Assembly (NCBI GenBank): GCA_023150875.1
Contig: JAKLKC010000053.1
Location: 1 to 46,027, forward strand
Source of the DNA: Myxococcota bacterium
GTDB lineage: Bacteria > Myxococcota_A > UBA796 > UBA9615 > JAKLKC01
Direction: 5' to 3'
DNA: 46,027 nt
The notes beneath the pieces are model-generated. The model was not told the origin of the DNA. It saw only the letters and a list, made by a program, of their open reading frames with translations, and ran no database searches. Position numbers and translations under genes: made by a program. Shown here in pieces: positions 1,855 to 19,089 of the stretch. Numbering within the stretch: position 1 is the first letter of the stretch; each line of letters starts with the position of its first letter.

Positions 1855-1858
1855 GGGG

Positions 1859-3064
1859 TCATCCGAGCCGCGATGGGCGGTACACTGGGTCCGCCCCCTG
1901 GAAGAGGCGGGCCAGCCGGCGCGCCTGGCGCTCCAAGACCCAGCCGAGCCGAGGACTCTCCCCCGAGTCCACCTCCCGCACCCCTCTCCGCAGCTCGCGC
2001 TGGAACTCGTGGAGGAAGAGGCGGCGGCCCCCGTCCTGGAGGTACACGGCCCGGGGCGGGGAGGGGGCGCCCGGGGCCGTCAGGTTCACCGGGACCGGCC
2101 GGGGATCCTGTTCCGCCGTATGGGGGTCACCCTGCCCGGCGGGCTCACCCCCAGCCGCCTCGACCTCCGAGTCCGCCGGGTCATCGGGCGGTTCGTCGAG
2201 ATCCGGGCCGTCCGGCTCCCGAGGGGCGGGCCCCGGGACCGCCAGGTGCGGACGCCTCCAGGAGGGATCCCCGAAGTCCTCGGGGGAGAGCTGCCGGCGG
2301 TTGACCAGCCGGAGGGTCATGCGGTCCACCACCCCCGCTCGGAACTCCTCCATGAGGTCCAGGGCCAGGGCCGGCTGGCCACGGATGGGCGCGTGGAGGG
2401 AGCCCACCCCCGGCAGGAGGCCCGTCGCGTACAGGGCCGACTCCACCCTCGTGGCGAGGAGCGTGTATCCGAAGGAGAGACAGGCGTTCACGGGGTCCCG
2501 GGGGGGGCGCCGATTGCGCCCGCTCCAACGGAAGTGGGGGTGGGTGATCAGACGGTCGAAGACCCCGTAGTAGATCGCCGCGGCCTGGCCCTCCAACCCC
2601 CGGGCCTGGTCGAGGCTCTCGGCGCCGGGAATGCGGCGCGACAGGGCGCGGAGCTGGCATGCCGCCTCTCCGATGGCCGGATCCTGGCGGTTGCGCTGGA
2701 CGTCGGTGAGCAGGCGCCACTGGGAGTCGACCTTGCCGGCCACGATCCACCGGGCCAGCGACAACGCGCGCTCCGGGTCCGCCAGCCAGCGCACCTGCTC
2801 CACCTGGAGGGCCCCCGTGGGCGAGCGGGGACCCTCCAGGCGGCCCCGGTATCGCCCGTCCGCGGTCAGGAAGACCACCGGGATCCCCCGGGCCAGGGCC
2901 GCCACCCGCGCCGATGCGCGGACCTCGGCCGCGCCGGAGATCTGGATCTCGTCCACCTCCCCGGCCCTGATCTCCCGCACCGGCTGGCCCCGGCGCTCGA
3001 CGACCCACTGCGAGCGGCGAAAGGACAGGGCCAGCGCCTCCCCCGCGAGGGCGAGCAGGGCCAC
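1859..3064 (-). CDS. cas1: CRISPR-associated integrase Cas1
   Basis: 401 residues; the Cas1 spacer integrase. The three metal-ligand positions are visible: E158 (GLEGQAAAIYY), H224 (GSLHAP) and D236/E239 (ALDLMEEFR). The N-terminal beta domain and C-terminal helical domain are both complete. It is longer than the usual 300-340 residues because of a Pro/Glu/Asp-rich insertion at about residues 267-337, between the DF motif and the final LFLHEFQREL helix. The reverse transcriptase and primase are separate upstream genes rather than fused to it. The primase gene ends 3 bp before this ATG and cas2 starts 4 bp after the stop. Confidence 0.95.
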   Translation of the reverse strand: MALLALAGEALALSFRRSQWVVERRGQPVREIRAGEVDEIQISGAAEVRASARVAALARGIPVVFLTADGRYRGRLEGPRSPTGALQVEQVRWLADPERALSLARWIVAGKVDSQWRLLTDVQRNRQDPAIGEAACQLRALSRRIPGAESLDQARGLEGQAAAIYYGVFDRLITHPHFRWSGRNRRPPRDPVNACLSFGYTLLATRVESALYATGLLPGVGSLHAPIRGQPALALDLMEEFRAGVVDRMTLRLVNRRQLSPEDFGDPSWRRPHLAVPGPAPREPDGPDLDEPPDDPADSEVEAAGGEPAGQGDPHTAEQDPRPVPVNLTAPGAPSPPRAVYLQDGGRRLFLHEFQRELRRGVREVDSGESPRLGWVLERQARRLARLFQGADPVYRPSRLG

Positions 3065-3067
3065 GCC

Positions 3068-4684
3068 TCAGGCCTCCTCTCCAACGCTCCCCGGCCCCCT
3101 GGGGGCGGAGGCGGCGACCTCCGACGTGTCCACCAGGCGAACCGGCCCCTCCCCGTCCCGGGCGTGGAGCAGCGGGGTGGCGTAGGTGAGCAGGACGGGC
3201 CCGAAGTCGCAGTCGCACCCCACCCGGTCGGCCACCCCAGGCACCCGCTGGCGGATCCGGAGACACGACATGGGGCTCCCCCGCAGCCGCCGGACGAGGC
3301 GCCAGGGCTCGGGGATCTCCGGCAGGTGGCGGAACACGTAGTTGAAGGCTCGCGGGCCTTCCCTCGTGTGCCCGATGGTGTGCTTCAGGACCATCGCCTC
3401 GTCCTGTCCCATCGCATCCCCCGCCAGGCCCCGGGCGACCAGCCGACGGAGCACGGCGCAGCCGGCCAGGAGCGGCGCGATCTGCGGGTCCACCCCGTAG
3501 TCCGCCTCCGTCCAGGGGGGAGGCGCAGGGGGCGCGATCCGGGTCCGGCGGACGGGGGTGTCGCCGGGCTCTCCCTCCGGACCTCCGTCGTCCGGCCCGG
3601 CCGGGCGCCGAGCCAGGAGGGTCGCCGTCGCCTCCGACAGGCGGTCGGCGGACACGGTCTCCAACTCGCGGAGGGCCACGGCGGGGTTGGGGTGGGCCGT
3701 GCCGTCCTGGCGCAGGATCCAAGCGCGCCTGCCGCTCACCCGGTGGATGCCCAGGGGGAGCTTGACCAGGTTGCCCAGCCCCCCGGGCTCCAGGCGGTCC
3801 TGCTTGGGGAAGAACTCCATGGACACGTCGGGCTCCCCGGGACGCGCGGCGCGCCGCAGGGCCGCGCCGAAGGCTCGGACGGTGGCGGCCTGGACCGGAC
3901 GGGTCAAGAAGATCCACAGGTGCCGCCCCTTGTGGCCGCTGTCCTCCAACAGGAAGGGCAGCCCGAGCTGGGCGAGGGTGCCGGCCAGGGAGCGGGCGGC
4001 GGCCTCCACCCTCGATCGGAGCGCCGCCACCGCCTCCCCGTCCCCAGCGGTCCGTGCGAGGGCGTCCCCCCTCGCGTCCAGGTCGACGACGGCGAAGCGC
4101 GCGGCGCCGTCGGAGCGTAGGACGTAGGAGCCGAGGGTGAGCCTGCCCTCCAGGTGGACACGGACGAGGGCCTCCGACAGAGGCTCCCGCACCGGCGAGT
4201 AGCCCCCCTGACCCCGCTCCGGGTCGTACCACTGCCGGGCGTGGACGTCCTCGCGGCCGGCGAACAGGTGGAGGAAGCGGGTCACGTCCGCCTCCTCGAA
4301 GCGGATGGCGGGAGCGTCGGGCGGTGGCGGGAAGGCGAGGGAAGCCGCACCGCCGGTGAGGACGTCCGGTCCCGGTCCCCCGTCGATGGCCGCCCCGCGG
4401 CGCAGGCACTCGGCGGCCAGGCGCGCGTCTCCCCGTTCGCGGTGGAGGGCGGCGAGCCGGCGCCAGGTGGGTGCGTCCCGGGGATCCCGCTCCAGGAGGA
4501 TCTGGCAACCCCGGACGGCTTCCCCCACCATGCCGCCCTCCTCGCACTCCTCGATCCACGCACGAACCTCGTCGGGGGGAGCGGTGGCCAGGAGGGCCGC
4601 CCGGGCGCGGAGGTCCTCGCGCCCGGCGGAGCGGTCCGCGGCGGGCGCCCGGGTGGGATCCTCGGGGCGGGTGGGTACGGACAT
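3068..4684 (-). CDS. CRISPR-associated primase-polymerase (AEP/TOTE-type)
   Basis: 538 residues from the ATG at 4684, which has a GGAG about 12 nt upstream. Residues about 25-95 look like TPR helices (DAPTWRRLAALHRERGDARLAAECLRR). The archaeo-eukaryotic primase core follows: the catalytic DxD is D201/D203 (VVDLDARG), the nucleotide-binding His is H255 (GRHLWIF), and LVKLPLGIHR is the third motif. The C-terminus carries a Cys cluster (SCLRIR then CDCDF), probably zinc-binding. This is the pattern of CAPP enzymes, primase-polymerases found beside Cas1 in type III loci and proposed to fill in or process prespacers. It sits between the reverse transcriptase and cas1 genes. The role is inferred from the family. 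Confidence 0.88.
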   Translation of the reverse strand: MSVPTRPEDPTRAPAADRSAGREDLRARAALLATAPPDEVRAWIEECEEGGMVGEAVRGCQILLERDPRDAPTWRRLAALHRERGDARLAAECLRRGAAIDGGPGPDVLTGGAASLAFPPPPDAPAIRFEEADVTRFLHLFAGREDVHARQWYDPERGQGGYSPVREPLSEALVRVHLEGRLTLGSYVLRSDGAARFAVVDLDARGDALARTAGDGEAVAALRSRVEAAARSLAGTLAQLGLPFLLEDSGHKGRHLWIFLTRPVQAATVRAFGAALRRAARPGEPDVSMEFFPKQDRLEPGGLGNLVKLPLGIHRVSGRRAWILRQDGTAHPNPAVALRELETVSADRLSEATATLLARRPAGPDDGGPEGEPGDTPVRRTRIAPPAPPPWTEADYGVDPQIAPLLAGCAVLRRLVARGLAGDAMGQDEAMVLKHTIGHTREGPRAFNYVFRHLPEIPEPWRLVRRLRGSPMSCLRIRQRVPGVADRVGCDCDFGPVLLTYATPLLHARDGEGPVRLVDTSEVAASAPRGPGSVGEEA

Positions 4685-4746
4685 GGCGTTGCGGGCTCCG
4701 GAGAGTGGAGGCCGATCAACGCCGGCCGCCGCCGCGCCTGACGGGC

Positions 4747-5745
4747 TCAGGGGGGCCGAGGGAGCCAGTCGGGCCACCACGCCGGGAGGGGCCAGGCCGC
4801 GCTCGATGCCCTCGCGGGGGAGCCTCCTCCCCCCGTGGGGATGGGGACCCGCTCCAGGCGGAACCCACCCGGTTCGGGGCGGATCCGAAGCGGGACGCCC
4901 AGGACCACCAGGGGCCCGCCGCGGTCCCCCGCGCGCCGGACCTCGGTCTTGTGCGGGGCGAGGCGCAGGCGCGCGTCCCCGAGGTGTCCGTCGAGCCAGC
5001 GGAGGAGCACGTCGGCGCAGCCCGGGTGGTCTCCCACCAGGAGGAAGTCGTCGGCGTAGCGGAGCCACCCCGCGGGCGGGCGGCCGTCGGGCCCCCTCTC
5101 CCGCTCCATCGGCCCGTCGACCCAGCCGTGGAGGTAGAGGTTGGCCAGCAGCGGCGAGAGGGGGGCCCCCTGGGGGATCCCTCGTCCGGGCGTCCGGGGA
5201 TCCGTCCACGCGCGCAGCCAGGCGGCGTTCAGGCGGAGCCACAGGGGATCGGGGCAGAGGGCGCCGGCCGCGGAGAGAAGCCGCCGGTGCTCCAGCCGGT
5301 CGAACAGGGCGTGGACGTCCCCCTTGACCACCTCCAGCCAGGGGCGGACGCCGATCCGGGCGAGGAGGGAGCGGACCCCGGACGTGGGGCCGCGGCCGGG
5401 GCGGAAGCCGTGGACGTGGGGCAGGAGCAGGGGCTCCGCGGCGGAGGAGAGCACGTGGTGGACCGCGGCCTGGACGAGGCGGTCGGCGACGCTGGGGATC
5501 CCGAGCGCCCGCGCGCCCCCCGAGGGCTTCTCGATGGTGACGTGGCGCAGGGGCCGGGGCTGCCAGCGACCGCCTCGCACCTGGTCCAGAAGCCAGGCTC
5601 GGCCGCCGGGGTGGGCGAAGACGGCGAACTCGTCGTCTCGCCGGAGCCCCGCTCCGCCCCGGGCCACCATGCGCTCCCAGGCGAGGCGGAAGACCTCTTC
5701 GGTGAGCAGCGAGGCCAGGTCCGGCAGGCGGCCCTCCAGGGCCAC
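4747..5745 (-). CDS. CRISPR-associated reverse transcriptase (group II intron-like)
   Basis: About 332 residues from a GTG at 5745. The N-terminus is uncertain because the frame stays open far upstream in this GC-rich DNA. Reverse transcriptase motifs occur in order: RT0/1 region (VFRLAWERMVARGG), RT2 (IEKPSGGARALGIPSVADRLVQ, split here only for reading), RT3/4 around KGDVHALFD, GIPQGAPLSPLLANL at 189-203, and the catalytic YADD at 230-233. There is no maturase or endonuclease domain after the thumb, so this is not a whole group II intron protein. With primase, cas1 and cas2 downstream, it probably allows spacers to be taken from RNA. The gap to the primase gene is 62 bp. Confidence 0.88.
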   Translation of the reverse strand: MALEGRLPDLASLLTEEVFRLAWERMVARGGAGLRRDDEFAVFAHPGGRAWLLDQVRGGRWQPRPLRHVTIEKPSGGARALGIPSVADRLVQAAVHHVLSSAAEPLLLPHVHGFRPGRGPTSGVRSLLARIGVRPWLEVVKGDVHALFDRLEHRRLLSAAGALCPDPLWLRLNAAWLRAWTDPRTPGRGIPQGAPLSPLLANLYLHGWVDGPMERERGPDGRPPAGWLRYADDFLLVGDHPGCADVLLRWLDGHLGDARLRLAPHKTEVRRAGDRGGPLVVLGVPLRIRPEPGGFRLERVPIPTGGGGSPARASSAAWPLPAWWPDWLPRPP

Positions 5746-6366
5746 GGACAGGGTCGCCGAGGCGGCGGCGGCCGAGGGAGGTCGGCGGGGCGGCGGGTTG
5801 GACGTCGGCAAGGGTGGGCCCGGGGGGCGGGGAGGGGACCGGGGCCGGCCCCTCGGGACCGGCGCCGCTGGACGCCCAGCGCCCTGAACGCCGGGGGGAC
5901 CCGGCGCTGACGAGGCCGGGCCCCGCCGGGGAGGCCGCCGCGCCCCCGCGCCGCAGGCTGGAGGGACCGGGGAAGGCTCCGGCCACCCCCTGGGAAGAAA
6001 TCGGAGCGATCGGCCTCTTCCCCCCTTCCACTGGCGGACGGTCTCGGGATACGGTGGGCGTGGCCGTGGGGACACGGCGTTTGTGACGACTCCGATGGAT
6101 CCGGGGAGATGAGGCGATGACGGCAGGGACAGGTCGCGTAGCGCCCGGGGCGGGCGCGTCTGGGACGAGTCCAAGGGCAGGTTTGGGGAGGGGAGGGGCC
6201 CCCGCGGCGGGGCGCCGCGCCGGTGGCCCGCCGCGCTCGCCCGCGACCCGCCGCCCGCCGAGGTAGGGGGATCCTCGTGGGGCCTCCCCGTGGGGGGGCC
6301 CCTCCGCTCCCGCGCCCGAGGCGGCGCACCCGGCGCCCTCGCGGGGCTCCGGGGAAGGGGACCGAC
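5746..6366. promoter_or_regulatory. divergent intergenic region between adaptation and effector operons
   Basis: About 620 bp with no gene I can support; it must hold promoters for the minus-strand adaptation genes and the plus-strand cmr operon. No convincing TTGACA/TATAAT pair is visible. The best plus-strand candidate is a weak TACGGT at about 6050 with a poor -35. The stretch 6190-6260 is dense in GCC/GGC and could fold stably. I see no direct repeats of CRISPR type. The region may also encode part of a longer N-terminus of the reverse transcriptase (5746-5890 codes a Pro/Arg-rich stretch in that frame). Confidence 0.5.
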
Positions 6367-7647
6367 GTGCCGAACGAGTCCATGACATTGAAGCTGGAGA
6401 CCACCGTGCCGGCCTTCGCCGGATCGGCAGCCACGCGGCAGGTCGACCCCTGGTTCGGGGTTCGCCCGAGCGCCATCCGGGGTGGGCTGCGGTGGTGGTT
6501 CCGGGCCGCGGCGGCGGGCGTGCTCCGTCCCGAGGGCGCGCCTCCCCGGGAGGCGGCCCTGAAGGAGGTCGTCGCCCGGATCCGGAGGGCCGAGACGGAG
6601 CTGTTCGGGGCGACGGAGAGGGCGTCCCGAGTGGTGGTCGGCCCGCCCCGGGGCGGCTCGATGCGGGAGGTCCCGCCCTTCGACCCCCGGAGCAAGGGGG
6701 GTGTGCGGTACCTGGGATTCGGGCTGTGGGACGACAAGGGAGCCAGAGCTCCCGAAGCGTGGTGGAGCCCCCGCCAGGACCCCCTGGTCGTCCCCATGCG
6801 GCTCCGCGACGGCGCGCCCGGGGGGGCGAGGGAGGCGCTTGCGGCGTCGATCTGGCTCTGGGCACACTACGGGGGCCTGGGCGCCAAGACGCGGCGGGGG
6901 TTCGGCAGCCTCCACCTGAGGGAGGACAGCGAACTCCCGTGGAGCGGACCGCCCCTGGGACGGGCGTCCGGCGTCTCGGAGCTCATGAAGCGCCTCCTCG
7001 CAGGGCTGGACGTGGCCAGCGAGGCGCTGCGGCGCTACCTGAGGAACGCGACGGACTGGGACGGCCGGGCCGGCAAGGCGCCCCACCCGCGGATCCGCTC
7101 CATCGACGGCATCGACTCCCTGCGGGCCCTCCCCCTGGTGTACCAGGACTGGACGTCGGCCTTGGACCACGCCGGGCGCCTCTACCGGGCGTTCCGGAGC
7201 ACCGTGGAGCGCCAGCACCTGGGGATGGCGCCCCTGCCGGACTTCTTCGCGGTGAAGGGCTCCCTCACCGGCGGGGGGGCGCCCCGCACCGTGGACCGCG
7301 CCGCGTTCGGGCTCCCCCTGCCGTTCTACTTCCGCTCCCTGGGCGGGGCCAAGACCAGGTTCGAGCCCGACGAGCAGGACGGCGACCGGCTGGCGTCCCC
7401 CCTCCTCTTCCGGGTCCACCCCGTCCGGAGGCAGGGGCCCGGCGGCGGCTGGGAGGATCGCCTGGCGGTGGTGCTGGTCAACCTGGCCCAGCGCGACCCC
7501 GGGGACGCGCTGCTGGGGTGCAGGCTCCGGCAGGACCGGCCCCCCAACCGGGGGATCGCCGCCCCGGGCGGCACCATCATCGAGCAGTTCATCGCCTGGG
7601 CCAGGGACCACGCGACCCAGGTGGGCGCGCCGGGGGGGGAACGATGA
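6367..7647 (+). CDS. cmr1: type III-B CRISPR RAMP protein Cmr1
   Basis: 426 residues from GTG 6367, preceded by GGGGAAGGGG; ATG 6382 is an alternative start. The N-terminal strand TLKLETTVPAFAG followed by the basic motif SAIRGGLRWWFRA is the Cmr1 signature. The glycine-rich GLGAKTRRGFGSL at about residues 175-190 is the RAMP G-loop. Cmr1 caps the head of the Cmr complex, near the 3' end of the crRNA, with Cmr6. It is the first gene of a tightly packed operon; its stop overlaps the cmr2 start by 4 bp (ATGA). Confidence 0.93.
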   Translation: MPNESMTLKLETTVPAFAGSAATRQVDPWFGVRPSAIRGGLRWWFRAAAAGVLRPEGAPPREAALKEVVARIRRAETELFGATERASRVVVGPPRGGSMREVPPFDPRSKGGVRYLGFGLWDDKGARAPEAWWSPRQDPLVVPMRLRDGAPGGAREALAASIWLWAHYGGLGAKTRRGFGSLHLREDSELPWSGPPLGRASGVSELMKRLLAGLDVASEALRRYLRNATDWDGRAGKAPHPRIRSIDGIDSLRALPLVYQDWTSALDHAGRLYRAFRSTVERQHLGMAPLPDFFAVKGSLTGGGAPRTVDRAAFGLPLPFYFRSLGGAKTRFEPDEQDGDRLASPLLFRVHPVRRQGPGGGWEDRLAVVLVNLAQRDPGDALLGCRLRQDRPPNRGIAAPGGTIIEQFIAWARDHATQVGAPGGER

Positions 7648-10469
7648 GCGGGACCCTGGACAGGGCCTACGCGCTCCGGGCGTGGGCGTTGCTGCTGCCC
7701 TGGGACCGGGAGCCCGGGGACGAGGGGGCGTTCGCCGCGGTCCCCCGGGAAGTGGTGAAGCGTCTCGGCCTCCCGGAAGAGCTGGACCCCTCCGAGAGGG
7801 CCCTCGTGTGCGCCTGCGCCATCGACGCCTACGCGGCGCAGATCGGCGCGGCGGCGGGGCCGGCGGCTGAGCCCGGCGGCGGGTCGCGGAGCCTGCCGGC
7901 GCTGAGGCACCCCCTCTCGGCCACGAGCCTGAGGGGAGGCACGCGGAGCGGCCCCGCGGACGGCGCCGCCGCGTACATGGACTTCATGGGATCGCTGGGG
8001 GTGGCGGCCCGGGGCGACGGGCAGGCGGACTCCGAGTGGTATCGGGACCTGTGGTTCCAGCTCGCGGAGGCCATGTCCTCGGGCCCGGCGGCAATGGTCC
8101 CGGGGAGCCGGCGGATCCCGGACTTCCCGGTGTGGGCCCACAGGACCCTGACGGCGGCCCTGGTGGGGGCGCGGTACTCCGGCGCGGTCCGGGCCGACGG
8201 CGGAGGCGGCGGGGCGGCCCTGCTCTACCTGCACCTCGGCCCCGTCCAGGACTTCATCGCCGCGGCGCGGCGCACCCACGACCTGTGGGTGGGCAGCTTC
8301 ACGGTGAGCTACCTGGCGTTCCGGATGGTGAGGGAGATCGTGGAGAGGGCGGGCCCCGACGCCGTGGTCTACCCGGACCCCACCGTCTTCCCCCTGGCGC
8401 GGTTGGAACACCGCGGGCCGGAGGACGTGGAGCCCCAGGACCGGATCCGGCCGTGCATCCCCAACAAGCTCCTGGCGGTGGTCCCGGCGGGCCGGGCGCC
8501 GGAGCTGGCCCAGGGCGCGGCAGCCCGGGCGCTGGAGACCTGGATGGGGATGGCGGAGGCTTGCCGGGCGGGGGTCTACGAGGCGCTGGCGAGGGGGAAC
8601 GGTGCTCGGGACCTGGCCGGCGCCGACGACTGGCGCGGGTTCGCCGAGCAGGTCGACGCCCACCTCGAGATCGACGCCGTCGTGCAGCCCTGGCCCGACC
8701 GGCGCGAGGACGTGGCGGCGCTGCTGGCCGGGCTCGGCGTGGAAGGCCGCGAGGGGTTGGAGGGGCTGCCCAGCGGCGTCACCGGGGACGCCTACGGAGC
8801 CCTCTTCGACACCACCCACCGCCTCCTCGTGGCGCACCGGCGGGCCGCTCCCCGCGTCCAACCCCCGGGGGACGACCGGCCCAAGTGCGACCTCTGCGGC
8901 GAGAGGGAGAGGATGGGGCCCGCGCGGAAGAGCAGGGAGTTCTGGCGCGAGCTGGGGGCGGCCCTCCAGCGGGCGGAGTCCGGCAACCAGGGTGGAGGAC
9001 CGCTCCCCGACCGCCTCTCCCTCCAGGTGGCGGACGGCGAGGGGCTCTGCGCCGTGTGCTTCACCAAGCGCCACGCCCCCCGGTACTGGTACGGTAGCAG
9101 GAAAGGGGGGCTGGGCCTGGAATGGGAGCGGCGGGACCGGGACCGCCCGTGGCTGCGGTTCCCCTCCACCGCGAGCATCGCGTCGGCCCCCCTCCGGTGG
9201 CGCCTCGCGGAGGTCCGAGACACCGTGCCCTTCCGGAAGTGGTGCTCGGCGCTCGACCGCCTCCACGCGCGGGACCTCTTGAGCTTCGACCCCCCGGGCA
9301 ACCTCGTCCCAGGCGTGGGCGAGGTCGGCCCCGGGGCGGTCTTCCCCTTCGACGGGACGTGGTGCTACGAGAGCGCCTACGACCCGGCGACCGCCTGGCG
9401 GGACCACCGGGAGGCGTCGCCGTCCGAGGCCGACGCGAAGAAGCTGGGCCCTCCGCTCCTGGCGGCGGACCGGCTCCGGCGCCAGGTCCTCGCCGACCTC
9501 GGCCCGGGCACCGGGGCGAGCCCCTACTACGCGGTCCTGGCCATGGACGTGGACCGCCTGGGGGAGTGGCTGACAGGGAGGCATCGCCGCACCCCCACCT
9601 GCGCCGAGGCGGCCACGGACCTGACCGGACCGCCGTGGGACTCGACCCCGCGCCCCCTCTTCCCCGCCCTCCACCGGGAGATCTCCCGACGGATCGCCCG
9701 CCTCGCCACGAGGGCGATCCCCGAGGCGATCGAGGGGATCGGCCTCGGGCGGGTGGTGTACTGCGGGGGCGACGACGTCCTGGCCCTCCTCCCCCTGCGG
9801 AGCGCCCTGCCGGTCGCCCAGGAGGTGCGGGACCGGGTGCGCGCCGAGGAGGGGCTCGGGGACAGGGTCGGGATCAGCGCCGGGATCGCCGTCGCCCACT
9901 TCACCCGCCCCCTCTCCCGGGCGATCCAGGAGGCCCGGGACGCCCTCCACGAGGCGAAGGAGACGAGGCGCCGGATCGGGGAGAAGGGGGAGCGGGACCG
10001 CTGGCGGGTGCGCGCGGCGGTGCGCTCGGGAGCGCCGCTGGTGGTGGACGCGCCCTTCGAGATCCCCCGCCCCCGGGGCGGGGAGCTCCGGGTGATCGAC
10101 GGGCTCCTGGACCTCCAGAGGGACATCGCCGGCGTGGCCGACGCCGCGGGCGACGCCGAGTCCATCGGCAACGTGGCCGCGGCGTACGCCCTGGAGCGGG
10201 AGGTGGGGGTCCTGGACGCACCTGGGTTGGAGGATGCCCTGATCCATCGCCTGCGGGTCCTCCTGGGTACCGACAGGACCACGGCGTCGAGGGACGATCC
10301 CTCGGTGTTGCTGGAGATCCTCCTGGCCCGCTTCCGCGCCGAGCTTCCACCGCCGCCAGGCCCGGGGAGGAGGCTGGTGGACCTGCTCCTCCTCCTGCGC
10401 TTCCTGGAGAGGGAGCGCCACGGGCTCCCGCCGTGGGGATCCGACGGAATGCCGGAGGGGAGGCGATGA
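7644..10469 (+). CDS. cmr2: type III-B Cas10/Cmr2, cyclase-competent, HD motif absent
   Basis: 941 residues, the large subunit of the Cmr complex. The first palm domain carries GPVQDFIAAARR (199-210) and DLWVGSF. Zinc-binding cysteines are C415/C418 and C469/C472. The second palm has the cyclase motif GGDD at 708-711 (YCGGDDVLALLPL), so cyclic oligoadenylate synthesis is expected upon target RNA binding. The N-terminal region keeps the RHPLS segment, but where other Cmr2 proteins have an HD nuclease motif (LLHDPP) this one reads LLLPWDREPGD. Single-stranded DNase activity is therefore probably lost. The start overlaps the cmr1 stop and the stop overlaps the cmr3 start. Confidence 0.95.
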   Translation: MSGTLDRAYALRAWALLLPWDREPGDEGAFAAVPREVVKRLGLPEELDPSERALVCACAIDAYAAQIGAAAGPAAEPGGGSRSLPALRHPLSATSLRGGTRSGPADGAAAYMDFMGSLGVAARGDGQADSEWYRDLWFQLAEAMSSGPAAMVPGSRRIPDFPVWAHRTLTAALVGARYSGAVRADGGGGGAALLYLHLGPVQDFIAAARRTHDLWVGSFTVSYLAFRMVREIVERAGPDAVVYPDPTVFPLARLEHRGPEDVEPQDRIRPCIPNKLLAVVPAGRAPELAQGAAARALETWMGMAEACRAGVYEALARGNGARDLAGADDWRGFAEQVDAHLEIDAVVQPWPDRREDVAALLAGLGVEGREGLEGLPSGVTGDAYGALFDTTHRLLVAHRRAAPRVQPPGDDRPKCDLCGERERMGPARKSREFWRELGAALQRAESGNQGGGPLPDRLSLQVADGEGLCAVCFTKRHAPRYWYGSRKGGLGLEWERRDRDRPWLRFPSTASIASAPLRWRLAEVRDTVPFRKWCSALDRLHARDLLSFDPPGNLVPGVGEVGPGAVFPFDGTWCYESAYDPATAWRDHREASPSEADAKKLGPPLLAADRLRRQVLADLGPGTGASPYYAVLAMDVDRLGEWLTGRHRRTPTCAEAATDLTGPPWDSTPRPLFPALHREISRRIARLATRAIPEAIEGIGLGRVVYCGGDDVLALLPLRSALPVAQEVRDRVRAEEGLGDRVGISAGIAVAHFTRPLSRAIQEARDALHEAKETRRRIGEKGERDRWRVRAAVRSGAPLVVDAPFEIPRPRGGELRVIDGLLDLQRDIAGVADAAGDAESIGNVAAAYALEREVGVLDAPGLEDALIHRLRVLLGTDRTTASRDDPSVLLEILLARFRAELPPPPGPGRRLVDLLLLLRFLERERHGLPPWGSDGMPEGRR

Positions 10470-11746
10470 GCGCCGTGTCGACCGTGTTCTTCGAGCCGCT
10501 GGACGTGCTGTTCTTCCGCGACCACCGCCCCTTCGACGCGGGCTTGCACTCCTTCGGGCGGTCCACCTTCCCCCAGCCCAGCGTGATCCGGGGGGCGCTG
10601 CGGACCGCTCTCTTCCTGGCTTCCGGTGCGCGCTTCGACAGCAACGAGCCGGGGTTCGGGGCCCCGGAGCCTTGGGTCACCCCGGTCCTGGGCGGCCGGA
10701 AGTGCCCGGGAAGCCTCTCCGTCCGGGGCCCCTTCCTGGCTCGGGGAGGGGCGGGGGGCGCCGGGCTCCAGCCCCTCCTGGCGATGCCGGCGGACCTCGA
10801 CGTCCGGGAGCTGGACCCGCCGCCCGGTCGGGCCGGTGGCGGGTCCCCGGCCGCGGCGCGGGAGCGGGAGCTGGTCCGTTCCAATCCGTTGGACATGGGG
10901 GCCCTACCGGCCCCGAGGCCGGTCCGCCTGCACCGCTGGAGGACGGGCGACGAGGCGCCGCTGGCGGAGTGGGGCGGGTCCCTGCCCTGGTCCCCGGTGG
11001 CCGCCGGAAAGGGGGGAGGCGCGGCCTACCTCGCCGGGGAGGGGATCGGCTGGTACCTGGGGGGCGAGGACGAGCGGCGGACCGTTACCCCGGGGGAGGG
11101 CTGGGTGGTCCGGGAGGGGGAGGCGCTCGAGTACGAGGAGCGGATCGGGATCCAGCGGGACGCGGCCACGCTGGTCGTCCAGGAGGGGATGCTCTACGCC
11201 ACCCGGTGCCTGAGCTTCCGGCGCGGCTTCGGCCTGGCCGCGGAGGTGGACTGGGAGGCCACCGCGAGCGCCGGAGGCGTGGGGTTGGAAGGGGTCGAAG
11301 CGGCGCGGCGGCGCCTCCACGAGCTGAGCGGGAGCACGATCTCCCTGGGAGGGAAGGGCCACCGGGCGAGGGTCCACGTCCGGGAGGGGGGGGTGGTCCC
11401 CCGGGGCCTCGGAGCGGGTGAGGCCGGCTCTCGGCTCCGGGCCTGGCTCCTTACCCCCACGCCCTTCAAGACCGGGGAGGGGGGCGTGCCCGAGGTCCTC
11501 GTCCCGGGGAGGGGGGCGGGGCTGGTGTCCATCGCCGCGGGCCGGCCGGTGGCGACGGGCGGGTTCGACATGGCCGGGGGTCGTCCCCGCCCCCTACGGC
11601 CCGCCCTGCCCGCGGGTTCGGTGCTCCACTTCGATTGGACGGAGGGTGGAAACATGGAGGGGTGGTGGACGGAGGCCCTCGCGAGCGAGGACCGGCGCAC
11701 GGGGTTTGGAGTCGCGCTGATGGGCGCTTGGAAGGAGTCGAGATGA
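10466..11746 (+). CDS. cmr3: type III-B CRISPR RAMP protein Cmr3
   Basis: 426 residues. The N-terminus FFEPLDVLFFRDHRPFDAG and the following QPSVIRGALRTALF are characteristic of Cmr3, which binds the 5' tag of the crRNA and contacts Cas10. The C-terminal half has the RAMP strand pattern and a glycine-rich segment near GFDMAGGRPRPLRPALPAGS. It overlaps cmr2 by 4 bp at its start and cmr4 by 4 bp at its end, with AGGCGATGA and AGATGA junctions. The assignment is confident from both motif and gene order. Confidence 0.92.
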   Translation: MSAVSTVFFEPLDVLFFRDHRPFDAGLHSFGRSTFPQPSVIRGALRTALFLASGARFDSNEPGFGAPEPWVTPVLGGRKCPGSLSVRGPFLARGGAGGAGLQPLLAMPADLDVRELDPPPGRAGGGSPAAARERELVRSNPLDMGALPAPRPVRLHRWRTGDEAPLAEWGGSLPWSPVAAGKGGGAAYLAGEGIGWYLGGEDERRTVTPGEGWVVREGEALEYEERIGIQRDAATLVVQEGMLYATRCLSFRRGFGLAAEVDWEATASAGGVGLEGVEAARRRLHELSGSTISLGGKGHRARVHVREGGVVPRGLGAGEAGSRLRAWLLTPTPFKTGEGGVPEVLVPGRGAGLVSIAAGRPVATGGFDMAGGRPRPLRPALPAGSVLHFDWTEGGNMEGWWTEALASEDRRTGFGVALMGAWKESR

Positions 11747-12780
11747 GCGAGGAGTCGAACGCCGGAGGCGGCCGGATCCGGGAGCCCGGGATGCTGGTCT
11801 TCTACTACACCGAGACACCCCTCCACGCCGGGAGCGGCACGGGGATCGGTGCCATCGACCTGCCCATCCAGCGGGAGCGGATGAGCGGCCTCCCCATCGT
11901 CCAGGGCTCGGGGATCAAGGGGGCGTGGCGGGAGGCCATGAGGCAGCGGGTGGGGCGGGGTGCGGCGCGGGACTCGAAGGCCGGCGACGGGAAGGGGGCC
12001 GACCTGGTGCTGTCCTGGTTCGGGCCCGAGCCCCCGCGGGTGGGGGACGGGGAGGGCAAGACGGGGGAGGCCGCGCCCACCTTCGCCGGTTGCGTCTCCC
12101 TCGGGGACGCCCGGCTGCTGCTGCTGGCGGTGAGGACCCTCAAGGGGGGGTGGGCGTGGGTCACCTGCCCGCTGATCCTGGAGAGGCTGGTTCGGGACCT
12201 GGAGATCCTGGGTATGGAGCTCCCCGGTTGGGTCTCCCCGGGGGCGGATCTCGCGGGGGCGTGGGTCTCGAAGGGGGCGAAGAGCGCGGTGGTGTCCGAG
12301 GGGCGGCTGGTCATCGAGGACTTCGACTACGCGGCGGAGGAGCGGGAGGAGGTGGACCGGCTCGGGGAGTTCCTGCGGGAACGTGCCTTCCCGGACACGC
12401 CGAGCTACGCCCCCTTCCGGGACCGGATCCCCGGGCAGCTCGCGGTGCTGCCGGACGAGGAGCTGCTGTTCCTGGCGCACCACGCGACCGAGGTGGTGGC
12501 GAGGATCAGGATGGACGGCGGCACCGGGACGGTGGCGAAGGGGGCGCTCTGGTCCGAGGAGAGCATCCCCGCCGAGTCCTTCCTTTGGTCCCTGGGCACC
12601 TTCACCGGCGACCGGCGGCCCGGCGAGGAGGCGGGGGCGGGAGCGATGCGGAGGGACTTCGTGGCCGCCGCCCGGGAGTGCGCTCGGATCCGCCTGGGCG
12701 GGGACCGCACCGTGGGCCGGGGCGTGGTCGGCGTCCGCGTGTACGCGCCCGGCGCGGAGACAGAAGGGAGCCAGCCGTGA
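11743..12780 (+). CDS. cmr4: type III-B backbone RNase Cmr4
   Basis: 345 residues. Cmr4 is the repeated backbone subunit that cuts target RNA every six nucleotides. The family motif HAGSGTGIGAIDLPIQRER is intact; D39 aligns with the catalytic Asp26 of Pyrococcus Cmr4, so RNA cleavage should be retained. SGSGIKG-like RAMP basic residues follow (QGSGIKGAWREAM). The C-terminal GGDRTVGRGVVGVRV is the glycine-rich loop. It overlaps its neighbours by 4 bp on both sides, and the cmr5 GTG is embedded in its stop (GTGA). Confidence 0.95.
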   Translation: MSEESNAGGGRIREPGMLVFYYTETPLHAGSGTGIGAIDLPIQRERMSGLPIVQGSGIKGAWREAMRQRVGRGAARDSKAGDGKGADLVLSWFGPEPPRVGDGEGKTGEAAPTFAGCVSLGDARLLLLAVRTLKGGWAWVTCPLILERLVRDLEILGMELPGWVSPGADLAGAWVSKGAKSAVVSEGRLVIEDFDYAAEEREEVDRLGEFLRERAFPDTPSYAPFRDRIPGQLAVLPDEELLFLAHHATEVVARIRMDGGTGTVAKGALWSEESIPAESFLWSLGTFTGDRRPGEEAGAGAMRRDFVAAARECARIRLGGDRTVGRGVVGVRVYAPGAETEGSQP

Positions 12781-13229
12781 CCGAGGAGAAGAGGCGTGAC
12801 GGGACCGCGACGACCGGCCTGGCCCAGGGCGGCACCGTGGCGGGCCAGATCGAGCAGCGGAGGGCGGCCTGGGCCTGGGCGAGGGTCGAGGAGGTCGCCG
12901 CCTGGGACAAGGCGAGCAAGGACAGGGAGGAGTACGCCGGCCTGGCCCTGAAGCTCCCCGCCCTGCTCCAGACCAGCGGGCTGGGTCAGACCATGGCGCT
13001 GCTGTTCGCCAAGGGGGGCGGTGGGAAGGAGGGCTCGGGAAACCGGGCCTACCGCACGATGTATCTCCAACTTCAAGCCTGGCTCCGGGCACGGATGCGG
13101 TGGCGCGAGGACCAGGAGGCGATGGAGCGCATCGTCGCCTGCTCCCCGGAGGCATACCGGCAGGCGACGCGGGAGGTCGCCGCCGTCTCCGAGTGGATCA
13201 AGCGGTTCGCCAAGGGGCGGATCGAGTGA
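12777..13229 (+). CDS. cmr5: type III-B small subunit Cmr5
   Basis: 150 residues from GTG 12777, which overlaps the cmr4 stop and has GAAGGGAG just upstream. It is mostly helical. The family pattern is visible: a central LPALLQTSGLGQTMALLFAKG, then AYRTMYLQLQAWL, and a C-terminal helix ending EWIKRFAKGRIE. Cmr5 lines the inner filament facing the target RNA. The N-terminal 20 residues are a variable extension. A 49-bp gap to the cmr6 ATG is the only sizeable spacing in the operon. Confidence 0.9.
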   Translation: MTEEKRRDGTATTGLAQGGTVAGQIEQRRAAWAWARVEEVAAWDKASKDREEYAGLALKLPALLQTSGLGQTMALLFAKGGGGKEGSGNRAYRTMYLQLQAWLRARMRWREDQEAMERIVACSPEAYRQATREVAAVSEWIKRFAKGRIE

Positions 13230-13278
13230 GCCCCCGCGGGGCGTGACGGAGCCCCGCGCGGCTCGCCGAAGGGAAGAC

Positions 13279-14223
13279 ATGGGCAACGGCCGAGACACGT
13301 TTCGACCCGGAGGTACGGGGGGGGGAGGAGGCCGGCCGGGGGGCGCGGATCGGTGGCCTCCCCGCGACCGCGACGGAGGGAGCCGCGACGGAGGGGACGG
13401 CGAGATGTGCCTGCCGCTGCCCGGAGACACGGCGCGGCGGGTGCCGGCCCGGCCGAGCCAGGGAGACAACATCGGGCTCTGGCTCGACAAGTTCGTGCGA
13501 CGGCGGAGCCCCTCGCCCGAGGCCCTCCGCAAGGGCGACGCCTGGGCCATCAAGTCCGAATACCGGGACCGGGCGCTGGCCCCCTTCTGGAGGGAGATCA
13601 CCGGGGCGGCGCGGGCCTGGAGGTCCGAGGCGGGGGTCCAGGGGCTCGCCCGGTCGGGCGAGGCGGTGAGGGCCCTCCACGGCGACGGAGGCTGGCGCAC
13701 CCACGACGCGAAGGTCCACGGGCGCCTGCTGGTGGACTACGGCCGGGCGACGTCCACAGAGATGAGCCTGTCCTTCCACCCCACCTGGGGGGTGCCGAGG
13801 ATCCCCGCCAGCGGCGTGAAGGGGGCCCTCCGCGCCTACCTGGAGGAGACGGGGGAGGCCGACCCGGTCCTGGACGCGCTGTTCGGCGGGACCGAGAGGG
13901 CGGGCGCCCTGGTCTTCCACGACGCCCTGCCCCTCGGGGGGACCTTCAAGCTGGCCTTGGACGTGCTCACCCCCCACCACGGCAAGTACTACCAGGAGGG
14001 AGCCCCCCCCGGGGACTGGATGAGCCCGGTGCCCCACACCTTCCTCACCGTCGTCGATACCACCTTCCGGTTCGCCATCGGCTTGGACGAGCGCCGATTG
14101 GAAGGGATGGCTCCCAAGGTCGCCTTGGACCTGGCCGTCCAGGGCCTCAGGGAAGCGCTCGACTCCCGCGGGGTCGGCGCCAAGAGGGCCGCGGGCTACG
14201 GTCGCCTGGGGAGGATCCCGTGA
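13279..14223 (+). CDS. cmr6: type III-B CRISPR RAMP protein Cmr6
   Basis: 314 residues from ATG 13279, preceded by AAGGGAAG. After a Gly/Arg-rich N-terminal stretch (about 40 residues) the Cmr6 core appears: DNIGLWLDKFV, then the RAMP motif WGVPRIPASGVKGALRAYL, VFHDALP, the LTPHHGKYYQ segment and the terminal glycine-rich VGAKRAAGYGRLG. Cmr6 sits at the head of the complex with Cmr1. The stop codon overlaps the GTG of the downstream ATPase gene by 4 bp, which ties that gene to the Cmr operon. Confidence 0.93.
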   Translation: MGNGRDTFRPGGTGGGGGRPGGADRWPPRDRDGGSRDGGDGEMCLPLPGDTARRVPARPSQGDNIGLWLDKFVRRRSPSPEALRKGDAWAIKSEYRDRALAPFWREITGAARAWRSEAGVQGLARSGEAVRALHGDGGWRTHDAKVHGRLLVDYGRATSTEMSLSFHPTWGVPRIPASGVKGALRAYLEETGEADPVLDALFGGTERAGALVFHDALPLGGTFKLALDVLTPHHGKYYQEGAPPGDWMSPVPHTFLTVVDTTFRFAIGLDERRLEGMAPKVALDLAVQGLREALDSRGVGAKRAAGYGRLGRIP

Positions 14224-16844
14224 CGGGGAAGTACCTCGACGAGAGCCCCTACACGCCCGAAAAGGGGCCAGCCCGGGACCTCGCCCGGAGCATCGCCGAG
14301 TGGGTCGCGGACGCCGGGAGGCGCTCGTCCGACGGGGCGTGGGTCGCGGGGGTCCACGGGGACAGGGGCACGGGCAAGACGTCGCTGCTGAAGGGAGTCT
14401 TGGAAGAGCTGGAGGAGAGGGGGAGGCGAGGCGAGGGAGGGAAGCCGGGGGAGGGTGACGGGCGCGGATTGGACTCTCCGGTAGACTGGGGTCCGCCCCG
14501 GGTCGTGCTCCCCCATCCCCGGCCAAAGTCGGGGTTCGGGGCGGAGAAGGTGCAGTCCCCGCGACGCCGGGATGGCCGGGAGGCCGGGGAGCCGCCGCAG
14601 CCCGGGGCTGCGACGGGGCGCACGACGGACAGGTTCCTGGCGCCCTCCATGACCCGATCCGGCGACGGGCTCCTCTTCGTTCTGCTGGACCACCTCCATC
14701 GATTCTACGCCCGGCCTGGCGCCTCCCCGGCTTCGGGCCGGTCCGCGTCCTGGGGCGGATCCCGGCCCGAGGACTTCCTCGCGGACGGCGGGGGCGCGGA
14801 TCCCTATGCGAGGGCACGCCGCGCGGAGGCGAGGAGACACGACCTCCCCCTCTTCCTCCAGTACGCCCGGGAGGTCGCTCCTTCCCGAGACAAGCTCCCC
14901 GAATACTTCGCCGAGCAATACCAGGAGGCGGCCACGGCGACCGCCAACATCCAGAGGCGATTCGCGGAGATCCTGGACGAGATCCGCAGGCCGGGCAAGG
15001 ACGCGGTGGTCCTGTTCGTCGACGACCTGGACCTCCAACCCCAGCGGAGCCTGGAGATGTTGGAGCTCATCCACCTGTTCCTCCACCGGCCGGGCGTCGT
15101 GGTGCTCCTCGCCGCCGACCGGGACCTCCTGCTCCACAGCCTGGAGGAGGGGCTGAGGGAGAGGTGGCCGTTGGCCGCCCACTCCCAGCGAGGGTTCGCG
15201 GGGACGCCGGGCCTCGCCGCGGAGCTGATGGCCAAGTTGATCCCCCTCTGGTGGACGGTGCCGACCCCCACCCCGGCGGAGCGGGTCGCCTTCGCCTGGA
15301 GCGGCAGGGGCGGCGAAGAGGGGGGGGCTCTCCGAGTGGCATGGAAGAAGGAGCCCCTGGAGGGGCTCCTGAGCATGGCGAACGTCGCGCGCCATTCCCG
15401 GGAACTGCGGCAGGAGAGGTGGCGAGAGGGAAGCCGCCCGGAGGGGCCCGCACCGGGCGGGAAGGAAGACCCCGTCCAGAGGGAGATCCTGGAGCGCCTC
15501 CTCCCGGACACGTGGCGGGGCCTGGTGGCGTACCGGAACCGCCTCCAGTCCGTCGTGGACAGGGCAATGGCGAGCCACGGGCGTACGAGCGGAGCGGGCG
15601 AGGGGGACGCCTTCGCGGCCGTCGCCGCGGACTTGAGCCGTCGCTGGGCCGCCTTGGGGTTGGACGCGGACGGGTTGCCGTCGTGGGCGGCCCTCCTCCT
15701 CGCCGTGGACGTGCGCTGGCCCGAGCTCCAGGTCTGGAGCGTCGCCGACCGGGACCCCAGGGCGCTTCGGGAGTTCCTCATCGGGCTCGGCGAGATCGTC
15801 GACAAGGGGGAGGTCCTGGGCGCTGGCGCGGGGCCGCAGGGCCCGGGGACGATCCCCCTGCTGGACCGGGTCGGCCCCCCGTTCCTGGACGGGATGCGCC
15901 TCCACTACGCCCGGGTCGCCCTCGCCTGGCTCGGGAAGCAGTGGAGCCAGGTGTGGAGTCCCGGCTCCATCGGCGCCTTCGCGAGGCTCCGGTGGCTGGT
16001 GGTCAGCCTGAACCAGGACGCCCTCGGCCTCACGCGGGCCCGGAGGTCCGGCGTGGGCGGGCCGGCCGAGGAAGCGGAGATGGAGGCCTGGCACGTGGAC
16101 CTCCAGGCCCACGCCCTCCTGCCCGGCCCCCGGGCGGACGCGGTGGGGCTCCGCGCCGCCCGCGCCGACGCGCGGCGTCTCATCGAGGAGAGGGGGGTCC
16201 GCTCCTTCGACGGCGCCCTCCAGGTCTTCGCCAAGGCCCAGATCCCCCTGGCCGCGTGGCTCGGCTGGTACCTGAGACACGTGGGGCTTGCCGCGGTGTA
16301 CAACGAGTGGCAGGGGGTCTGGACCCCCTTCCTCATCCCCCCCGAGGTGGGCCTGGTGCGGGCCCCGGGGACAGGCGTGTTCCACCGGCTCCGCATCCAC
16401 GAGCCCGAGGATGTGCCGGAGGGTCCCGGCGACCAGGCGGTGGTCATCGTGGACCTGAGCGGGAAGGCCACCCCCGCGCAGCTCCGGGAGTTCTGGACCC
16501 GCGGCCCTGGGGGGGAGGAACAGGTGCGCGCCGGGCACCGCTACCTGCTCCAGGTGCCTGAGGGGACAGGGTCACGGGTGGAGGCCGACGACGCCGTCCC
16601 CATCCTCGAGGACGTGATGGAGCTGCTCCGCGTGCTCCGCGACTCCGAGGGGGTGCGCGCCTTCCACTTGGGCTTCGCAGGGCCCACCGCCCTGGCGTTC
16701 CTGCTGGGCCGGCACCTGAACGCCCAGGGGGTGGTCCACCTGTACGAGCTCCTGAAGAAGGGCGAGCAGACGCGCTACGAGTACGTCTTCGACCTGGACG
16801 GGGAGGACGGGGGGGGAGAGGGCGGTGCCGAGGGCGAACGCTGA
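14220..16844 (+). CDS. RdrA-like P-loop ATPase with C-terminal SAVED domain
   Basis: 874 residues from GTG 14220, with GGGGAGGA 6 nt upstream. Walker A is GDRGTGKTS (47-55, K53); Walker B is VVLFVDDLDL with D268/D269, followed by HRPGVVVLLAADRDLLL, as in KAP-family ATPases and RdrA of RADAR. Residues about 65-140 form a Pro/Arg/Gly-rich insertion. A helical middle region runs to about 650. The last ~200 residues look like SAVED: AAWLGWYLRH (678-687), VVIVDLSGK (741-749), FHLGFAGPTALAFLLGRHLN (815-834) and HLYELL (840-845). SAVED domains bind cyclic oligonucleotides in CBASS and in type III CRISPR (CalpL). I infer an ATPase gated by the product of Cas10. The deaminase gene overlaps its end by 20 bp. 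Confidence 0.85.
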   Translation: MTGKYLDESPYTPEKGPARDLARSIAEWVADAGRRSSDGAWVAGVHGDRGTGKTSLLKGVLEELEERGRRGEGGKPGEGDGRGLDSPVDWGPPRVVLPHPRPKSGFGAEKVQSPRRRDGREAGEPPQPGAATGRTTDRFLAPSMTRSGDGLLFVLLDHLHRFYARPGASPASGRSASWGGSRPEDFLADGGGADPYARARRAEARRHDLPLFLQYAREVAPSRDKLPEYFAEQYQEAATATANIQRRFAEILDEIRRPGKDAVVLFVDDLDLQPQRSLEMLELIHLFLHRPGVVVLLAADRDLLLHSLEEGLRERWPLAAHSQRGFAGTPGLAAELMAKLIPLWWTVPTPTPAERVAFAWSGRGGEEGGALRVAWKKEPLEGLLSMANVARHSRELRQERWREGSRPEGPAPGGKEDPVQREILERLLPDTWRGLVAYRNRLQSVVDRAMASHGRTSGAGEGDAFAAVAADLSRRWAALGLDADGLPSWAALLLAVDVRWPELQVWSVADRDPRALREFLIGLGEIVDKGEVLGAGAGPQGPGTIPLLDRVGPPFLDGMRLHYARVALAWLGKQWSQVWSPGSIGAFARLRWLVVSLNQDALGLTRARRSGVGGPAEEAEMEAWHVDLQAHALLPGPRADAVGLRAARADARRLIEERGVRSFDGALQVFAKAQIPLAAWLGWYLRHVGLAAVYNEWQGVWTPFLIPPEVGLVRAPGTGVFHRLRIHEPEDVPEGPGDQAVVIVDLSGKATPAQLREFWTRGPGGEEQVRAGHRYLLQVPEGTGSRVEADDAVPILEDVMELLRVLRDSEGVRAFHLGFAGPTALAFLLGRHLNAQGVVHLYELLKKGEQTRYEYVFDLDGEDGGGEGGAEGER

Positions 16845-19089
16845 CGCCGCCGTCACCCGGTGGATCGCGCGCCCCCTGTTCGAGGCGGGCTTCCTGCGCC
16901 TCCACGTCGCCGAGCTGTCCGTGGTGCTCGGCACGGGCAAGGAGTGGAGGCGATTCCGGCCCGATCCCCACGCGCGGCTGTTCGAGGCGGCGTTCTTCGC
17001 CTGCCCACCGGGGCCGAGGTACCTCGCCCGGCACCGCGACGAGGCTTGGGCGACCCTCCGGGACCCGGTCCTCTCCGTGGGGCGGCCCTGGGAGCGGTTC
17101 CGCGAGGTCCTGGCCCTCCTCCGGAGCCGATCCCCCCGGGCGGAGCCGGGGAGACCGGGGATGCTGGAGATCTGGCGCGGGCTGGGGAACGAGACCCAGG
17201 CGTCCGAGCCGCTGCTGGCGGACGGGGGAGCGGCTGACGGTGGGGAGAACCGGTTGCCCGGCGGCGACCTGCGTGCACGGTACGAGGTCCACGCCCACCT
17301 CTACGGCGCCGTCCCCTTCGAGCACCTGTGGACGGGCTGGCTGGGGAACGAGCGGTGGGCCCGGCAGTTGGAGGGCGTGCCGTTTCGGTCCTGCGGCTGG
17401 GAGATGAACGGTGCCGAGGCCGTCGCCCTGGCCAGGAGAGTGGCGGCGGAGCTCGGGGCTCCCATGGCGGACGGCGAGGTGGAGTCCCGGTGGTGCGCCT
17501 CCCTCGTCCAGGGTCTGGCGGGCGGCGGTGTCGGCGCCCCCGGGCTCCGCGGGCGGCGGGGCGTCCTGGCGGTGGGATACCTGGCCCTCCGGGGCGCGGT
17601 CCGAGAGGCCCTCGTGGTGGGGCCGGGCGAGGTTGGCCTCGACTCGTTCAGGACCTCGTATGATCGATACGCCGACGCCCAGTTCATGGCCCGCGACGCC
17701 CCGGGCAACCAGGACCGCCGGCTCGTTCGCGCCGCCCTGGACCGTTACGCGGGGGAGGGGGTCCAAGGGGTCGAGCTCCGGCCGGCGCTCAACGGGCGCG
17801 GCCCCGCCGAGACCGTCGTCCGGCTGCGGGACTGCGTCCTGGGGTACTTCGATCACCTGGAGGCGGCGTGGAAGGGGAGTGGCGCGGGGAGGGCGCTGCG
17901 CTTCGGGCTGGTGCCGTCGCTGATCCGCCAGGCCCACCTGGAGCCCGGACTCCGGACCTCCTCGCTGGACGCCTGGGAGGGCCAGGCGGCGGCTTGGGCG
18001 CGGCAGGTGGAGCACCTGCTGGTGGCCGTGGGGGAGGTGCCCTGGCTGCGGTACTTCCTGGTGGGGTTGGACGTGGCCGCCGGGGAGAGGGGCTGCCCGC
18101 CCCGGGCGGTCGCGCCCGCCCTGGGGCGGGTCCAGGCGTACAACCGCGCCCTGGGGCTGGAGTGGGCGCGCCCGGGGCGGGAGATCCAGGTGGACCTGTT
18201 GAGGCGGGCGTTCGAGAGTGCGGGCCGCGGGAGGGGGGCGGACCTGCTGCTGGAGGAGCTGGGGAGGGCGAGGGAGATCCCCCCGGCGCGGATCGGGCTC
18301 ACCGTCCACGCGGGCGAGGACTTCCTGGACCCCGTGACCGGACTCCGGCACGTGTGGGAGGCCGCCGAGGTCCTGGACCTCCAACCGGGGGATCGGATCG
18401 GGCACGGGATCGCCCTCGGGCTGCACCCGGCCGCCCTCCGCCAGGTCCTGGACGCCCGGTGTCACGGCCCCGGGCGGGACGTCGAGTCCCTGGGGGGTGA
18501 CCGGTGGCGCCTGCTCAAGCCCCGGGGGACCCACCTGCTGGACCTGGCGTGGGAGTTCCGGATCGGGGAGCCCGCGGAACGGGGTGCGCTCGCGGAGACG
18601 ATCGGGCGGGTGGCGGTGGGCTCCTTCGGCTACCCCGCGCGGGTGGATCGGCTGCTCCGTGACCTGGTCGCCGCCGGCTCCGTGCCCCACCCGGTGCTGC
18701 CGGGGATCCGCTACCGGGCCGAGGGGGACGTGGGCCCCGAGGACCGGGAGTGGGTGGTGGTGGACCGGGACTGGCTCCGGAGGTTCGAGGTCGTCCGGGA
18801 GCGCACCATCGCCCGAGTGGAGCGCCGGGGGCTGACCGTCGAGTCCTGCCCCACCTCGAACTGCGTCGTCTCGGGGCTCGAGGTGCCACCCATCGGCGAG
18901 CTCTCGTCGCACCCGGATCTCCGGGTCGCCCTGGCGACCGACGATCCCGGCCTGCTGGACGCCTGGCCGGGGGGGGAGGCGAGCCGTGCCCTGGTGGCCA
19001 TCCGGGGGCGGATGGGCCCGGGAGCTGCGTGGGCGGGGCTGGAGCGGGTCGTGGGGGAAGCGGAGCGGTCGAGCTTCATCGCCCCCTGA
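16825..19089 (+). CDS. RdrB-like adenosine deaminase
   Basis: 754 residues from GTG 16825, overlapping the ATPase gene by 20 bp. All adenosine deaminase active-site positions are present: zinc ligands H156/H158 (VHAHLYG), H495 and catalytic E498 (VHAGED), H527 (RIGHGIALG) and D706/D707 (ATDDPG); SCPTSNCVVSG (674-684) is the usual strand before them. The spacing is far larger than in housekeeping adenosine deaminase, and there are about 150 extra N-terminal residues. Size, divergence and pairing with a KAP-like ATPase match RdrB of RADAR, which deaminates adenosine in RNA or nucleotides. No CARF or SAVED domain is seen here; sensing would have to come from the ATPase. Confidence 0.88.
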   Translation: MPRANADAAVTRWIARPLFEAGFLRLHVAELSVVLGTGKEWRRFRPDPHARLFEAAFFACPPGPRYLARHRDEAWATLRDPVLSVGRPWERFREVLALLRSRSPRAEPGRPGMLEIWRGLGNETQASEPLLADGGAADGGENRLPGGDLRARYEVHAHLYGAVPFEHLWTGWLGNERWARQLEGVPFRSCGWEMNGAEAVALARRVAAELGAPMADGEVESRWCASLVQGLAGGGVGAPGLRGRRGVLAVGYLALRGAVREALVVGPGEVGLDSFRTSYDRYADAQFMARDAPGNQDRRLVRAALDRYAGEGVQGVELRPALNGRGPAETVVRLRDCVLGYFDHLEAAWKGSGAGRALRFGLVPSLIRQAHLEPGLRTSSLDAWEGQAAAWARQVEHLLVAVGEVPWLRYFLVGLDVAAGERGCPPRAVAPALGRVQAYNRALGLEWARPGREIQVDLLRRAFESAGRGRGADLLLEELGRAREIPPARIGLTVHAGEDFLDPVTGLRHVWEAAEVLDLQPGDRIGHGIALGLHPAALRQVLDARCHGPGRDVESLGGDRWRLLKPRGTHLLDLAWEFRIGEPAERGALAETIGRVAVGSFGYPARVDRLLRDLVAAGSVPHPVLPGIRYRAEGDVGPEDREWVVVDRDWLRRFEVVRERTIARVERRGLTVESCPTSNCVVSGLEVPPIGELSSHPDLRVALATDDPGLLDAWPGGEASRALVAIRGRMGPGAAWAGLERVVGEAERSSFIAP

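Follow-up and report, generated by a model that had tools for sequence, protein, structure and literature searches.

RADAR, the closest described relative of the gene pair considered here, is a stand-alone defence system in which a heptameric ATPase, RdrA, sits on a dodecameric adenosine deaminase, RdrB. Its function requires the RdrA-RdrB complex, it yields ITP and dITP, and the C-terminal domain of RdrA was proposed by the authors as its sensor (PMC9994260). Type III CRISPR systems also use deamination, since cyclic oligoadenylate governs the production of ITP by their adenosine deaminase Cad1 (CARF-ADA; PMC12669630), and in the type III effectors CalpL, SAVED-CHAT and TIR-SAVED it is a SAVED domain that senses the cyclic oligonucleotide (PMC11229360). 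Both RADAR and cyclic oligoadenylate-triggered deamination in type III systems by way of CARF-ADA are already known. Here we describe a Cmr operon in which a RADAR-like pair directly follows the cmr genes, at positions 6367-19089 of contig JAKLKC010000053.1; the window, that is, the whole stretch analysed, is this contig in its full length of 46,027 bases, part of a 6.9-Mb metagenome-assembled genome (MAG) of Myxococcota. With a probability that we put at roughly 0.74, this locus is a type III-B system with a RADAR-derived ATPase-deaminase effector arm that is gated by a cyclic-oligonucleotide sensor.

All eight genes lie on the forward strand, in the order cmr1 to cmr6 (type III-B), the RdrA-like ATPase gene and the RdrB-like deaminase gene. 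Each of Cmr1-6 scores above its curated NCBIfam type III-B cut-off (6/6): cmr1 (6367-7647; RAMPs 5.2e-15; TIGR01894 above cut-off), cmr2/cas10 (7644-10469; TIGR02577 168 bits, cut-off 79.4; Cmr2_N and palm2), cmr3 (10466-11746; TIGR01888 above cut-off), cmr4 (11743-12780; TIGR02580 185 bits), cmr5 (12777-13229; TIGR01881 55.5 bits, cut-off 27.9) and cmr6 (13279-14223; TIGR01898 121.6 bits, cut-off 51.1). The ATPase gene (14220-16844) encodes 874 residues and the deaminase gene (16825-19089) 754. Five junctions, cmr1/2, 2/3, 3/4, 4/5 and cmr6/ATPase, are 4-bp overlaps, the last of them consisting of the bases GTGA at 14220-14223; the ATPase and deaminase genes share 20 bp (16825-16844), and the sole gapped junction is that of 49 bp from cmr5 to cmr6. 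GTG start codons are used by cmr1, cmr5 and the genes of the ATPase and the deaminase. A preliminary description of this DNA had reported the overlaps on either side of the ATPase gene, and these hold, as do its call of six cmr genes and its placement of all eight genes. It had guessed from adjacency that the pair serves the CRISPR system as its effector arm, and had missed the SAVED domain at ATPase residues ~648-860; this fused sensor, together with the operon of a second genome, now supports the guess independently.

That second genome, Myxococcota MAG.235 (G171; loci L023/L048), belongs to the same class and to a different order, and has the same eight genes in identical order, which is what the search for the pair next to cmr6 in other genomes, suggested in the preliminary description, was to look for. 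Between the two genomes the Cmr proteins share 37-46% identity, the deaminases 36% and the ATPases 31%; this similar identity across all eight genes suggests that they diverged together, and the recurrence of the order shows that the linkage is no chance event. The ATPase of MAG.235 has its own SAVED match (34.7 bits) as well as a KAP match, and at least 18 CRISPR repeats adjoin the operon beyond cmr1. The 20-bp overlap is not conserved there; the deaminase start is uncertain and lies within ~60 bp of the ATPase stop. The operon, its domains and catalytic motifs, the homology of the pair and its conserved linkage can be read directly from sequence or model. That the pair is an inactive or decaying accessory, or stems from a RADAR locus inserted in the operon by chance, would accord with the rare distribution and with the degraded deaminase remnant, containing an in-frame stop codon, in the cmr locus of a third genome (G020, described below). 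However, both complete loci retain open frames, Walker motifs, the sensor and every zinc and catalytic residue despite ~31-36% identity, which points to long purifying selection and makes this explanation very improbable.

The Cas10 subunit is consistent with signalling through a messenger. Its GGDD cyclase motif is intact (VVYCGGDDVLALLP at residue 708), the counterpart in MAG.235 being LVYCGGDDVVALLP, and an HD nuclease motif was not found in the N-terminal region of Cas10 in either genome; immunity should therefore rest on messenger-activated effectors. The single Cas10 palm domain in the genome is the operon's own; among the operon products, no sensor of the cyclic oligoadenylate type other than the SAVED ATPase can be recognised. 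Asp39 of Cmr4 sits in the loop GIGAIDLPIQRE and, by analogy, is probably the catalytic position.

In the ATPase, the N-terminal AAA+ domain carries Walker A (GDRGTGKT) and Walker B (VVLFVDDLD) motifs. The seven best PDB folds of its model are all RdrA entries (Z 18.7 to 14.1, with 18.7 for 8hr8), the best non-RdrA fold being Cdc6/Orc1 at 12.4; Foldseek likewise ranks RdrA first, and hhalign compares a two-sequence profile of the ATPase with the RdrA alignment at 98.9% probability. The input alignments of the models contained RdrA and RdrB homologues, so that fold likeness depends on them, whereas the hhalign and hidden Markov model results are independent. Homology to RdrA is real but distant. 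The protein is also a P-loop ATPase of the KAP type (QatA 2.6e-8; QatA and PifA are among its PADLOC matches), a feature shared with QatABCD and other KAP NTPases, from which it differs in its partner genes and in the fold ranking, RdrA being its best structural match. The SAVED domain (16161-16799; matched place 16209-16793) is found by PF18145 (6.3e-15; 55.8 bits, cut-off 26.2) and by NF033611 (56.7 bits, cut-off 33), and the C-terminal end matches the SAVED protein of PDB 9eyi weakly (phmmer E=0.4). Because the model is good in the AAA+ part and poor past residue ~360, the SAVED assignment comes from the profiles. Like CalpL, SAVED-CHAT and TIR-SAVED (PMC11229360), the locus places a SAVED sensor within a type III system, but the known partners of those sensors are TIR or the proteases Lon and CHAT, in contrast to the AAA+ ATPase and deaminase found here.

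The deaminase is related to RdrB over its full length. It matches the RdrB profile NF041744 at 4.9e-17, RdrB is its sole PDB sequence match (4.9e-6), and PADLOC prefers RdrB (1.9e-13) over CARF-ADA (4.2e-6). Its AlphaFold2 model (mean pLDDT, the predicted local distance difference test score, of 73) matches RdrB along the whole chain (Foldseek 1.0e-15, versus 4e-4 for a Cad1-type match), with 581 residues aligned to RdrB 8hr7 at Z 26.8, compared with only ~310 residues for ordinary deaminases and for Cad1. H156, H158, H495, H527 and E498 are invariant in 22 homologues and fall at the positions of the zinc tetrad and catalytic glutamate of RdrB, which in Escherichia coli are H152/H154/H498/H530 and E501 (PMC9994260); D706-D707 is kept. 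Neither Pfam nor NCBIfam gave a CARF match within the protein, and a Cad1-type origin was rejected on the profile and fold rankings. The locus shares with Cad1 the link of an adenosine deaminase to type III CRISPR, but differs in that Cad1 is one CARF-bearing protein, whereas here SAVED is borne by an AAA+ ATPase separate from the RdrB-like deaminase. Taken with the fold and hhalign results for the ATPase, these comparisons, which include the structure prediction that the preliminary description had suggested, bear out its view of the pair as RADAR-like, at a considerable distance. In a quick tree, whose branches are long, the deaminases of the two CRISPR operons pair with 100% support; together with three RdrB homologues of Myxococcota they make up a group (95), and so fall within the RdrB tree. 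Their nearest relatives in the tree are the deaminases of RADAR-like Myxococcota four-gene loci (L025 2470-14902, L028 2-10694 and L038 5227-17685). In each of these, genes for a 1,400-2,300-residue protein with a C-terminal AAA domain and for a 360-470-residue protein accompany those of the ATPase and the deaminase; the large proteins gave no PADLOC match.

The locus agrees with RADAR in its adjacent gene pair, its RdrA-fold AAA+ domain, and the full-length fold and active site of RdrB. It differs in that RADAR is stand-alone and the RdrA C-terminus has no known domain, whereas this pair stands behind cmr6 with SAVED at the C-terminus of its ATPase. SAVED was found in 0/29 ATPases adjoining other RdrB homologues, most of which match RdrA in PADLOC, and on this ground it was rejected as a general RADAR feature; nearly all the ATPase-deaminase pairs in this set are ordinary RADAR. 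The flanks of RdrB homologues elsewhere, queried with the Cmr proteins of the window and of MAG.235, contained no cmr genes, G020 excepted. The preliminary description had held that homologues occurring mainly away from cmr genes would speak against its reading; this is indeed so for the RdrB family at large, but not for the SAVED-bearing subfamily, both complete copies of which lie in cmr operons. Nearly all RdrB homologues whose upstream flank is present have an ATPase-sized gene immediately upstream. This last observation bears on the possibility that the SAVED ATPase is itself the effector, or else regulates the Cmr complex or cyclic oligoadenylate levels, and that the deaminase is a second, constitutively regulated enzyme. 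AAA+ and KAP-type ATPases do occur in other defence systems, as the QatA and PifA matches recall, but the general pairing, the deaminase linkage in both genomes and the requirement of a complex for RADAR function (PMC9994260) make such a division of roles unlikely.

Further copies are rare. In a search of 84,980 genome contig sets, prefiltered with two short motifs and thus liable to miss copies, MAG.235 was the sole close relative, and a search of Myxococcota returned MAG.235 and the G020 remnant. Plasmids gave one weak RdrB-like match only, viral contigs no further copy, and ~830 genomes of three other phyla merely short RdrB-like matches. The KAP ATPases of two other genomes (G181 and G205) that matched the query were rejected as further copies, having no SAVED domain and no cmr genes in the available DNA.

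The G020 locus, in the same class, is a mixture of type III and CBASS (cyclic oligonucleotide-based antiphage signalling system) parts. Its cmr operon (L024, G020:C95, 8995-14239, minus strand) encodes Cmr6, SAVED and a PNP phosphorylase fused in one 854-residue protein; behind it come a DncV-like CD-NTase, the deaminase remnant and a TIR protein. The presence of a CD-NTase gene beside a SAVED fusion in a cmr operon favours an alternative in which our locus is a RADAR-CBASS hybrid, its SAVED ATPase sensing the messenger of an unlinked CD-NTase and the operon providing co-expression only; SAVED is, moreover, common in CBASS, and PADLOC SAVED matches are mostly CBASS effectors. However, no CD-NTase was found among the ten flanking genes scanned in the window, the pair directly follows cmr6 in 2/2 complete loci, and the cyclase motif of Cas10 is intact while the SAVED ATPase is the sole recognised sensor of its type in the operon. 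We consider the hybrid improbable, and prefer an effector arm controlled by the operon's own Cas10.

Several points weigh against this preferred assignment. Complete copies are known from two MAGs only, and no CRISPR array lies within the window. The SAVED region of the ATPase model, with pLDDT mostly below 50, is not confidently modelled. Both proteins are far under the equivalog cut-offs, with 22.7 bits for the ATPase against RdrA (NF041743, cut-off 600) and 61.7 bits for the deaminase against RdrB, where 800 is required, and the mechanism may therefore have diverged from that of RADAR. Judged by these sequence scores, the pair is a distant branch, RADAR proper being excluded.

By analogy with the described families, the system may work as follows. 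As in other Cmr systems, the Cmr complex, guided by CRISPR RNA, would bind a foreign transcript, upon which the GGDD cyclase of Cas10 would produce cyclic oligoadenylate. This presumed messenger would then be bound by the C-terminal SAVED domain of the RdrA-like ATPase, as expected of the SAVED family—a placement that fits the proposal of the RdrA C-terminal domain as sensor (PMC9994260). Binding might promote assembly of the AAA+ ring or ATP hydrolysis, and the ATPase, in a complex like that of RADAR, would dock on or activate the deaminase. The RdrB-like deaminase would finally turn ATP and dATP into ITP and dITP, so that the nucleotide pool is corrupted and phage growth stopped. A more specific version, to which we incline somewhat less strongly but still regard as rather probable, is that the whole RADAR machine was captured by a type III CRISPR system, the phage sensor of RdrA being replaced by SAVED and the conversion of ATP and dATP being switched by the cyclic oligoadenylate of Cas10.

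In the open-access papers searched, we found neither an account of an RdrA-like ATPase fused to SAVED nor one of a RADAR pair encoded within a type III operon, and no SAVED effector described with an AAA+ ATPase or deaminase partner. The locus would give type III CRISPR a kind of two-protein effector not found described there, and would link two defence systems that have been studied separately. Nucleotide deamination would then have been reached twice in type III systems, through CARF-ADA (Cad1) and through RADAR. For RADAR, a defined trigger would be supplied, and an RdrA-like protein with a sensor class of known ligands at its C-terminus is expected to offer an experimentally controllable switch for a RADAR-type machine.

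A divergent adaptation module lies upstream of the operon on the minus strand (1570-5811). It comprises a group II intron-like reverse transcriptase with a YADD motif (4747-5811; TIGR04416 1.2e-45, under the equivalog cut-off), a CRISPR-associated primase-polymerase (CAPP) of type A1 (3068-4681; NF040561 252 bits, cut-off 200; AEP-TOTE), cas1 (1859-3064; PF01867 3.6e-79) and cas2 (1570-1854; PF09827 1.7e-16). Just past cas2, on the same strand, a sigma-70 region 2 protein, ECF (extracytoplasmic function)-like, is encoded at 640-1467. On the other side of the operon, the downstream neighbour of the deaminase gene codes for a PGA_cap protein that has no obvious connection with it.

Elsewhere in the source genome, contig G000:C115 (L042) carries a type I-G system (GSU0053/GSU0054, Cas3 and Cas4-Cas1) and, at its start, 40 copies of a 37-nt repeat, 20 copies of which also begin contig G000:C133 (L095). 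The C115 repeats were rejected as the array of the Cmr complex because they adjoin the type I-G system instead. One further SAVED protein, with a stronger match, is encoded at G000:C29:3042-3614. Within the window, a 99-nt repeat in two copies of 79% identity (25705-25899), apparently inside a minus-strand gene, resembles acidic calcium-binding repeats.
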